Shown in pieces: positions 42,154 to 44,618 of a DNA stretch of 47,614 nt. The position numbers and the translations under genes were made by a program. This stretch comes from an uncultured Trueperaceae bacterium. GTDB taxonomy: Bacteria > Deinococcota > Deinococci > Deinococcales > Trueperaceae. The DNA is taken from contig CAJXOA010000015.1 in assembly GCA_913057685.1 (NCBI GenBank), positions 1 through 47,614 of the forward strand, given 5' to 3'. Within the stretch, counting starts at the first letter, position 1, and each line of letters begins with the position of its first letter. A model generated the notes under the pieces. It saw only the letters and a list, made by a program, of their open reading frames with translations. It did no database searches and was not told where the DNA came from.

Positions 42154-42182
42154 GACGCGCCCCGCCCCCGGCGGGGCGCGTC
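42154..42182. terminator. Bidirectional hairpin between convergent genes
   Basis: A perfect 13-bp stem (42154-42166 with 42170-42182) with a CCC loop. It lies between the pterin dehydratase stop and the dockerin-like gene stop, whose first two bases it includes. It probably ends both units. Confidence 0.65.
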
Positions 42183-43779
42183 ATTCGTCGCCGGACGTGC
42201 GTCCCTCGGGGGGCGTGCGGGCGGGCGCGAGGAAGGTGTAGCGCGCCTCGAGCCGCTGGACGTCGGCGTCGTCGACCTCCCCCGAACCGTCGACGTCGGC
42301 GGCGAGCCGCGTTCCGGCCCGCCCGTACTCGGCGGCGAGGCGGACGAGGTCGTAGAAGTCGACGTCGCCGTCGCCGTCCAGGTCCTCGGGGGCGCTGGCG
42401 AGCGCTGCGGTGAGCGCGTCGGCGTCGCTGGCGAGGGGCGGGGAGGTGCCGTCCTCCGGGAAGCGTCCGGAGCGGAACCCGCGCTCGGCGACCTCGAGCC
42501 CCAACCAGCGTCCGAGTTCGTAGGCCAGCACGTCGCTGCGCCGTCCTTCGGCGCCGGGTCGGACGAGGATCTCGACGCCCGGTTCGCCGGCGACGCGCCG
42601 CGAGAACGCCAGCGCGTCGGGACCGAAGCGGTCGACGTCGCCGATGCGGACGCGGTCGATGGCGTCGTCGTCGTCGACGAGCGTGAGGGCGACGCCCACC
42701 GACCGCCAGGCGTCGATGGCGTCGTCGAGCGCTTCGCGCAGGGCGGGGTCGTCGGGCAGGTCGAGGCGGACCTCCGTCGCGTCGTCCGCGTCCGGTGCAT
42801 CGGGGGCGGCGACGTCGGTGGGCGACGCGTCGGTGGGACTGGCGTCGGTGGGCGACGCATCGGTCGGGGAGCCATCGGTGGGCGAGGCGTCGGTGGGGTT
42901 CGCGTCGGTAGGGCTTGCGTCGGTGGGCGACGTGTCCGTGGGGGAGGCGTCGGTGGGGGACGCGTCGGTCGGGGACGTCCCGGTCGGGGCGGCCCGGTTG
43001 CCGCTCGCGGTGCCGTCGTCGGTCGCACGCGCGTCGGTCGGGGACGCATCGGTCGGGCTTGCATCGGTCGGGCTTGCGTCGGTGGGCGACGCGTCCGTGG
43101 GGGAGGCGTCCGTGGGGGAGGCGTCGGCCTCGGGATCGGGAGCGGGTGCGTCGTCGTCGGGGAACAGGTCGTCGTCCGTGAGGGCGTCGCTCCGCCAGCG
43201 CGGGGCGCTGGACACCCGCGCGCTCGCGTCGCCGTCCAGGACCGCCTCGAGGGTATCGAGGACGATCTCGACGTCGGTCTCCTCGCCCCCCTCGACGAGC
43301 AGGTCGTCGTCGACGCCCAGCGCGCCGCCGCGCAGGTCGACGAGGCCGTCGCCCGTCAGGCGCCACAGGCCCTGCCACACGCCGACGATGGGGCTGATCG
43401 AGGCCTCGCCCGCGTACTGCGCGAGGAGCACGCGGTCGCCGACCTCGACGCGCACGAGGTCGTCGACGAGGGTGCGTTCGCCGTCCCGTTCCCCCGCGGC
43501 GAGGGTGAAGGCGTGCGTATCGCCGGGGTCGTCGACGTCGTCGGGCACGCGGAGGCGTCGCTCCACCTCGAGCGTGATTCGGGTGCGCGCGCCGTCGTCG
43601 TCGCCGGCCGCCGGGTCGACCTCGGTCACGGTGCCGTACACGACGTGGTCGGCGCGGTCGAAGAGGCGCGCGAGGGACAGGTCCAGCACCGACGTCGCCC
43701 ACGTGGGCCCCACGAGGAGGACCAGCGCGAACGCCGTCGCGAACGCGAGGGCGCGGCGGGGCGCGGTCCGGCGGATCAC
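42181..43779 (-). CDS. Secreted protein with SPTDA repeats, degenerate matrixin-like domain and dockerin-like end
   Basis: A 532-residue exported protein of unknown role. Signal peptide: residues 1-29 (ALAFATAFALVLLVGPTWA). Residues 31-180 resemble the N-terminal domain seen before some matrixin peptidases (LFDRADHVVYGTVTEV, IVGVWQGLWRL). Residues 221-323 hold 17 copies of SPTDA. Residues 340-440 look like a matrixin domain whose zinc motif is lost: VLAYELGRWLGLEV in place of HELGHxLGLxH. Residues 465-515 carry two dockerin-type calcium loops, DLDGDGDVDFYDLVRLAAEYG (in pieces) and DVDGSGEVDDADVQRL. The GTG overlaps the lipoprotein gene stop (GTGA). Confidence 0.8.
   Translation of the reverse strand: MIRRTAPRRALAFATAFALVLLVGPTWATSVLDLSLARLFDRADHVVYGTVTEVDPAAGDDDGARTRITLEVERRLRVPDDVDDPGDTHAFTLAAGERDGERTLVDDLVRVEVGDRVLLAQYAGEASISPIVGVWQGLWRLTGDGLVDLRGGALGVDDDLLVEGGEETDVEIVLDTLEAVLDGDASARVSSAPRWRSDALTDDDLFPDDDAPAPDPEADASPTDASPTDASPTDASPTDASPTDASPTDARATDDGTASGNRAAPTGTSPTDASPTDASPTDTSPTDASPTDANPTDASPTDGSPTDASPTDASPTDASPTDVAAPDAPDADDATEVRLDLPDDPALREALDDAIDAWRSVGVALTLVDDDDAIDRVRIGDVDRFGPDALAFSRRVAGEPGVEILVRPGAEGRRSDVLAYELGRWLGLEVAERGFRSGRFPEDGTSPPLASDADALTAALASAPEDLDGDGDVDFYDLVRLAAEYGRAGTRLAADVDGSGEVDDADVQRLEARYTFLAPARTPPEGRTSGDE
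42811..43119 (-). repeat. 15-bp coding minisatellite (17 SPTDA units)
   Basis: Two blocks, six then eleven units of Ser-Pro-Thr-Asp-Ala, are split by an 18-residue spacer. The codons vary between units, so selection on the protein is likely, but copy number may change by slippage. Confidence 0.9.
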
Positions 43780-44618
43780 GGGGTCCCTCCGTCGTCCTGG
43801 GTGGCGTCGGTGGAGGCGTCGGCGTCGGTGGGGCTCTCGGTGCGCTCCCGGACGTCCTCGGCGCTCGCACCGATCCGGCGCGACGCGAACGTGTGCCGGT
43901 CGGCGTACAGCTGTTCGATCTCGAGGTCGAACCCGAGCAGGGTGGTGGAGGCGGCCTCGACGGGGAAGCGGAACACCTCGGTGTCGCCCTCGACGCCCTC
44001 GCCCCACGCCGCGACGTCGATCGCGAGGCGACCGTCGCCGCCCTCGACGAACAGGACGCCGTCGCGCAGCGAGCGCTCGACGGCGTCGGGATCGATCGTG
44101 ACCGCGTCGTCGTCCCACCGGAGCCGCACGCGCGCGCCCTGCCAGGTGCGGGCGTTCGCGACGCGCGCCCGCAACACCGTTTCGCCGCGCACCTCGGTGT
44201 CGGGGACCGACAGCTCGAAGGTGGGGACGGGGACGTCGCGGACCCGGATCTCGTACGCCTGGAAGGTGGAGGCGAGGTTCCCGTCGGTCACGACCAGCGT
44301 GAACGGGTAGGCGCCCAACCGCGTCGGGGTGCCGACCACGACGCCGTCCTGCAGCGACAGGCCGGGCGGCAACGCCCCCTCCTCGAGGTCGACGCGGTAC
44401 GGCCGGAGGCCGCCCACCGCGACGACGTCGGCGCGGTACGCCTCGCCGACCACCGCGTCGGGCAGGTCGTTGCTGGCGATCCGCAGCGGGTCGCCGGGCA
44501 ACGGCGCCTCGTCGGCGCAGGACGCCAGGACGACGGCGGCGACGACGAAGGCGGTCGCGAGCCACACCGCGGCGGCCGGGCGCCGTGGGCGCCACCCTGT
44601 TCGCGTCGGCGGGGTCAT
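43776..44618 (-). CDS. Lipoprotein with Ig-like and cohesin-like domains
   Basis: A 280-residue predicted lipoprotein. The signal ends in the lipobox LASC, giving an acylated Cys34. Residues 45-125 form a putative Ig (He-PIG) domain: LPDAVVGEAYRADVVAVGG and ALPPGLSLQDGVVVGTPTR. Residues 133-235 look like a cohesin fold: VPDTEVRGETVLRARVAN, then RLRWDDDAVTIDPDAV and TEVFRFPVEAASTTLLGFDL. The tail is acidic and contains one SPTDA, the unit repeated in the next gene's product. The ATG at 44618 has a good AAGGAG site. It heads the two-gene unit with the dockerin-like protein. Confidence 0.8.
   Translation of the reverse strand: MTPPTRTGWRPRRPAAAVWLATAFVVAAVVLASCADEAPLPGDPLRIASNDLPDAVVGEAYRADVVAVGGLRPYRVDLEEGALPPGLSLQDGVVVGTPTRLGAYPFTLVVTDGNLASTFQAYEIRVRDVPVPTFELSVPDTEVRGETVLRARVANARTWQGARVRLRWDDDAVTIDPDAVERSLRDGVLFVEGGDGRLAIDVAAWGEGVEGDTEVFRFPVEAASTTLLGFDLEIEQLYADRHTFASRRIGASAEDVRERTESPTDADASTDATQDDGGTP

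Follow-up and report, generated by a model that had tools for sequence, protein, structure and literature searches.

The window analyzed here, a stretch of 47,614 nucleotides, is contig C15 of a 2.29-Mb genome (G000), and it carries on its minus strand two overlapping genes, P0001 and P0002; all features described below lie on this strand. The upstream gene, P0001 (43776..44618), encodes a lipoprotein of 280 amino acids, with homologues in 102 of the 111 genomes of the phylum. It starts with ATG, and its lipoprotein signal peptide (44517..44618) ends in LASC, the lipidated cysteine being residue 34. This lipobox cysteine is invariant in an alignment of 32 members. The stop codon of P0001 (TGA) overlaps the GTG start codon of the second gene within the tetranucleotide GTGA (43776..43779). 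P0002 (42181..43779) encodes a partner protein of 532 amino acids that corresponds to a fusion of two genes of its relatives, here called A and B. A hydrophobic stretch and a cleavage-like site suggest that it begins with a signal peptide extending to ...TWA (43696..43779). Both starts are preceded by ribosome-binding-like stretches, GGAAGGAGACCCCATG for P0001 and CGGAGGGACCCCGTG for P0002.

The two-gene arrangement, its strand, the lipobox and the GTGA coupling are all as described in an initial annotation made from the sequence alone. The observation reported there is confirmed as a whole, and its interpretation, a surface anchor with a calcium-dependent client outside cellulosomes, is partly supported.

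Domain structure of the lipoprotein

Following the lipidated cysteine, residues 50–126 of P0001 (44241..44471) form the Ig-like domain that had been recognized before, identified here as He_PIG (Pfam PF05345, E 4.4e-9) and matched in all 32 aligned relatives. It is followed by a cohesin-like domain at residues 130–251 (43866..44231), delimited with an AlphaFold2 model and VIA-align comparisons. The model, built from six sequences, has a mean pLDDT of 88.4 and shows a cohesin β-sandwich at its residues 97–218, which correspond to residues 130–251 of P0001. The best VIA-align match of this segment was 2vo8 (Z 13.9, rmsd 2.4, 120 aligned of 135 residues), with 2jh2 (Z 12.7), 6kgf (Z 12.0) and 2xdh (Z 12.0) among further cohesins. 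The top seven rows were all cohesins, with Z from 13.9 to 11.8, and non-cohesin folds over this domain alone reached Z 9.7 or lower, except for 5fx8_U (Z 11.4). Foldseek also found 2vo8 (TMt 0.71) and 2xdh (TMt 0.65); its top rows for the lipoprotein were mixed Ig-type proteins with high rmsd, the cohesins being prominent in the VIA-align comparison. The initial annotation had made its reading depend on a cohesin fold in residues 133–235. That fold was recovered in the model, but the domain extends somewhat beyond these limits.

At the level of sequence, the Pfam cohesin model (PF00963) had no match in P0001, nor any across the genome of the window, and it was matched by one of 32 lipoprotein relatives (E 0.028). 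A profile of the lipoprotein family searched against the PDB reached 2vo8 with an E of 0.082, over the cohesin-like half. A cohesin assignment from sequence alone was rejected, since Pfam, NCBIfam and the profile-to-PDB search gave merely hints, and it was the fold comparison that decided. Because the sequence support is faint and below the Pfam cut-off, we call the domain cohesin-like and do not file it as a Pfam cohesin. P0001 holds a single such domain, unlike cellulosomal scaffoldins, which have several cohesins per protein. The sole PF00963 match recorded among 61 genomes lies at L095 (G023:C352). The contig carrying it resembles foreign contamination, its protein being judged typical of another phylum, and the match was left out.

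Domain structure of the partner protein

Domains A and B share one open reading frame in 11 of the 40 loci that hold both, the window included, and occupy separate frames in the remaining 29, among which we counted L033, whose linker contains unknown bases. As separate genes, A encodes an exported product of about 190 amino acids and B an exported product of about 250, in which a dockerin accompanies a degenerate matrixin-like part. In the loci fetched with this arrangement, the order is lipoprotein, A, B. Both the N-terminal domain A and the existence of A and B as two genes in most relatives had been overlooked in the initial annotation.

P0002 contains an SPTDA linker, encoded by a 15-bp tandem array (42800..43127; TRF period 15, 22.3 copies). 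P0002 has 13 exact SPTDA copies and P0001 has one, so the unit is indeed present in both proteins, as had been noted. It is common to the window and its closest relative (G004/L033), and the other relatives read have different linkers: at the position of the array they carry either different repeats or no repeat, and in G004 the bases there are unknown. Given this restriction to the closest relative, the sharing of SPTDA is uninformative on pairing, and we rejected it as evidence for the pair.

Domain A (residues 27–192; 43204..43701) is predicted as a β-barrel. VIA-align comparison of model m06c943ef9efa matched it to 1uap (Z 8.7), 3ma2 (Z 8.3) and 1d2b (Z 8.1), the last two being N-TIMP-1, at values near the tool's stated chance level. 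The P0002 model as a whole is poor (pLDDT 57.4, from an alignment of seven rows). Pfam gave no convincing domain on 24 members of A, and sequence searches with the domain yielded no match to NTR/TIMP. The structural matches weakly suggest that A may have an NTR/TIMP-like fold.

The degenerate matrixin-like domain (residues 333–461; 42397..42783) was recognized by VIA-align and by Peptidase_M10 matches in relatives. Its structural matches were the metzincins 1kuh (Z 8.3, rmsd 3.5 over 119), 2xs4 (Z 8.1) and 1hv5 (Z 8.0), which is near the noise level of the tool, and Peptidase_M10 was matched by 6 of the 34 B relatives (best E 6.3e-6). The position at which the zinc motif has been lost, AYELGRWLGLEVAERG (42478..42525), was located in the alignment of the 34 relatives, none of which has HExxH, nor the complete HExxHxxGxxH. 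By eye, HE plus a Met-turn-like VM or IM is kept in 17 of the 34 B proteins, and P0002 has neither. With the zinc motif lost, we describe the domain as an inactive relative and do not file it as a peptidase; judged from its residues, it is inactive. The matrixin-like fold with a broken zinc motif that had been proposed is supported, more weakly than the other features of the initial annotation. The further suggestion that the domain binds rather than cuts fits the missing HExxH, but this role of the displayed domain is one that we infer. A matrixin-like paralogue devoid of dockerin occurs in G020 (L098 3942–5177), and in it the first zinc histidine is also absent (LEVGHALGLLG).

P0002 ends in the two dockerin-type calcium loops expected from the initial annotation, namely DLDGDGDVDFYD at residues 466–477 (42349..42384) and DVDGSGEVDDAD at residues 495–506 (42262..42297), both identified by pattern and family profile. 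They follow D-x-D/N-x-D-G-x-x-D-x-x-D, and each is succeeded by a helix in the low-confidence P0002 model. The Pfam model Dockerin_1 (PF00404) reaches P0002 with an E of 0.0026 and 18.4–20.1 bits, below its cut-off of 22.9; many relatives at this locus exceed this cut-off. It is matched by 33 of the 34 B proteins at E values up to 1 (best 1.3e-8), and the profile of the B family finds the solved dockerin 2y3n_B (E 1.9e-11). By pattern, both loops are present in 27 of these proteins, one in five and none in two.

Distribution of the pair in Deinococcota

Among the 111 Deinococcota genomes, profile matches were found to the lipoprotein in 102, to B in 102 and to A in 44. Lipoprotein and B occur together in 100 genomes; the lipoprotein alone was found in two (G064 and G073), B alone in two (G025 and G110) and neither in seven. 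In G073, G025 and G110 the absent partner would fall beyond or beside a contig end. The co-occurrence of the two parts gives a Fisher test P of 4e-8, a value that overstates independence because the genomes are related to each other, so that co-occurrence statistics are weak here.

The genomes with both parts comprise 51 in which they share one reading frame (a state judged from open frames of equal length, together with strand and distance), 43 in which they are same-strand neighbours within 3 kb, and six in which they lie on different contigs. The genes are therefore kept together in 94 of 100, and the loss of linkage in relatives, which had been put forward as an argument against the pair, did not occur. 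Gene A is present in 40 of the 43 neighbour genomes. The other three (G081, G098 and G102, all of family f4) have lipoprotein and dockerin matches separated by 42–458 bases and in frames that differ in length. All 44 genomes with A fall in families f1, f2 or f5, and all 51 one-frame genomes are without it.

In f3 and f4 (families f2 to f5 may be Deinococcus-like and Thermus-like), the match to the B profile covers just the dockerin part and lies on the lipoprotein itself, with no client encoded. We read these chains in 13 of 14 fetched loci, the last one being truncated. The second loop region is present in every chain read. The first loop is without its acidic residues in all 13, and the helix-forming stretch after it is retained; in several chains a linker rich in proline and alanine separates the dockerin halves. 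With A and B missing and a dockerin on the lipoprotein, the picture of an anchor and its client, which may hold for f1, f2 and f5, is too narrow and fails in these two families. The loss of the first loop and the splitting of the halves also mean that classical docking may not apply there.

Dockerin_1 was found in 39 of the 61 genomes searched; 36 of these have exactly one match, which is at this locus in 34. The genome of the window (G000) contains two further Dockerin_1 proteins, one with a Pfam S8 protease domain and the other alike by sequence, and these subtilase-type proteins indicate that exclusivity is not strict. Two matches each were also found in G003, which is placed in the genus of the window, and in G004; in G003, C40 is the locus itself.

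Proteins of a second cohesin-like/dockerin set occur elsewhere in the window's genome (L097 4042–7632 and 9681–12263; L096 1528–4215). One of them combines an N-terminal cohesin-like stretch, recognized by eye, with dockerin-like loops and RCC1 repeats, and stands near subtilase-type proteins whose dockerins are of another sequence type. In f4, a cohesin-like N-terminus, likewise recognized by eye, is joined to a subtilase-type dockerin (L099 1387–3336 and 4119–6185; L100 1198–3177), and such proteins stand in tandem in L099.

Across 33 f1 genomes, dockerin distances showed partial correlations of 0.20 with the cohesin part, 0.09 with the Ig part and 0.06 with domain A, compared with 0.29 for the covalently linked matrixin part. 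The difference points in the expected direction, but the correlation with the cohesin part is small and the signal weak. Searches of plasmids with A and B gave no match.

Discussion

Considering the computed export signals, cohesin fold, dockerin loops, loss of the zinc motif and conserved pairing, we lean with modest confidence towards a cohesin-dockerin pair in the cell envelope whose members are dedicated to each other, one to one, and which is unrelated to cellulosomes. The lipid-anchored protein would present its Ig-like spacer followed by a single cohesin-like domain, presumably at the cell surface. The second exported protein would terminate in a two-loop dockerin, probably folded by calcium, that plugs into the cohesin-like domain, one to one. 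In f1, f2 and f5, this would keep an inactive matrixin-like domain, together with an NTR/TIMP-like one, tethered at the membrane, where they would serve in binding or as a structural element. In f3 and f4, where both modules are on one lipoprotein, they may form an internal clasp within the chain or a link between neighbouring chains. The presence of both modules in one chain in relatives is counted as classical support for their interaction.

An alternative that we consider unlikely is that the dockerin-like tail either caps the C-terminus, stiffened by calcium, or attaches to a matrix, the cohesin-like domain binding some other target, for instance the S-layer or a sugar, and that the neighbours serve one envelope process without contact. 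Conserved operons whose products have no direct contact are common, binding of the modules is something that we infer, and the tail in f3 and f4 lacks one of its calcium loops and, in several chains, is interrupted by a linker, all of which would suit such a role. It accounts poorly for the 51 one-frame genomes, which, all devoid of A, retain just the dockerin of the partner and retain it on the cohesin-bearing chain, or for the single Dockerin_1 match in most genomes that have one.

The functional core of the system could also be a protease-inhibitor relic, that is, a complex of the TIMP-like A with the matrixin-like B, for which the cohesin pair merely provides membrane retention. The VIA-align comparisons, in which A resembles N-TIMP/NTR folds and B resembles metzincins, point in this direction, as does the fusion of A and B described above, and a secreted metzincin with a TIMP-like lipoprotein has been described in Listeria, according to the available text of PMC8235301. 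This explanation remains doubtful, since those matches, with Z of 8–9 near the chance level of the tool, come from a model with a pLDDT of 57, A has no sequence match to NTR/TIMP, and B has no zinc motif. Less probable still is that the lipoprotein is a general hub with multiple dockerin-bearing clients, of which P0002 would be one and the two subtilase-type proteins of the same genome further examples: the additional Dockerin_1 proteins in G000, G003 and G004 would fit, but a single match is the rule in genomes having Dockerin_1, the subtilase dockerins differ in sequence type, and close to one of them stands a further protein that has a cohesin-like stretch itself (L097).

The dedicated pair that we favour can be compared with several known systems. 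Cellulosomal type I and type II pairs, in Clostridium thermocellum and others, likewise combine a cohesin fold with a two-loop dockerin. The present locus differs from them in having one cohesin-like domain, no scaffoldin, a client without a carbohydrate enzyme and a sequence below the Pfam cohesin threshold. The closest folds are the noncellulosomal cohesins of Archaeoglobus fulgidus (2xdh) and Clostridium perfringens (2vo8 and 2jh2), which are similarly found outside cellulosomes; unlike these, the locus has a lipid anchor with an Ig domain and a pseudo-protease partner, and it is spread through the phylum as neighbours or as one chain. That cohesins and dockerins exist outside cellulosomes is thus already known (2vo8, 2jh2 and 2xdh; the available text of PMC9012536 and PMC6030884).

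In ANME archaea, dockerin-cohesin pairing has been proposed to attach proteins to the envelope; as far as the available text goes, the cohesin and dockerin proteins there are many and variable per genome, in contrast to the one fixed pair found here (PMC9012536). TMEM132 proteins combine Ig-type domains with a cohesin domain, as the lipoprotein does, but they are animal proteins, and the available part of that report states that dockerin homologues are undetectable in vertebrates (PMC6030884). The metzincin and TIMP-like lipoprotein of Listeria monocytogenes also form a bacterial envelope pair, and the protease is reported to cleave its TIMP-like partner; the abstract makes no mention of cohesin or dockerin (PMC8235301). 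The locus described here, by contrast, has lost the zinc motif, and its assignment of a TIMP-like domain is weak. Dockerins on subtilisins are mentioned in PMC2605481, none, in the text available, in a setting like that of this pair. Our literature search, which did not extend to the Peer et al. (2009) overview of modules outside cellulosomes, found no description of this pair in Deinococcota, nor of a phylum-wide dedicated pair occurring both as neighbours and in one chain.

A broader and tentative scenario, which we regard as improbable when taken in full, is that a former protease-inhibitor pair, a dead matrixin with a TIMP-like protein, now has a structural role at the surface throughout Deinococcota, where a private cohesin-dockerin lock holds it in place. 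In the two families without a client, the lock would have been retained within one lipoprotein, as a clasp or a polymer link.

Cohesin-dockerin binding is known mainly from cellulosomes, and elsewhere the partner of a module is often unclear. With one dockerin per genome in most cases, beside or on the sole cohesin-like lipoprotein, the locus offers a pair reduced to the minimum, in which the candidate partner is unambiguous. The pair persists through deep divergence, alternating between separate genes and one chain, and it is suited to testing roles of cohesins in processes other than the breakdown of cellulose. In addition, the locus would provide a clear example of a pseudo-protease that is conserved and displayed for binding.
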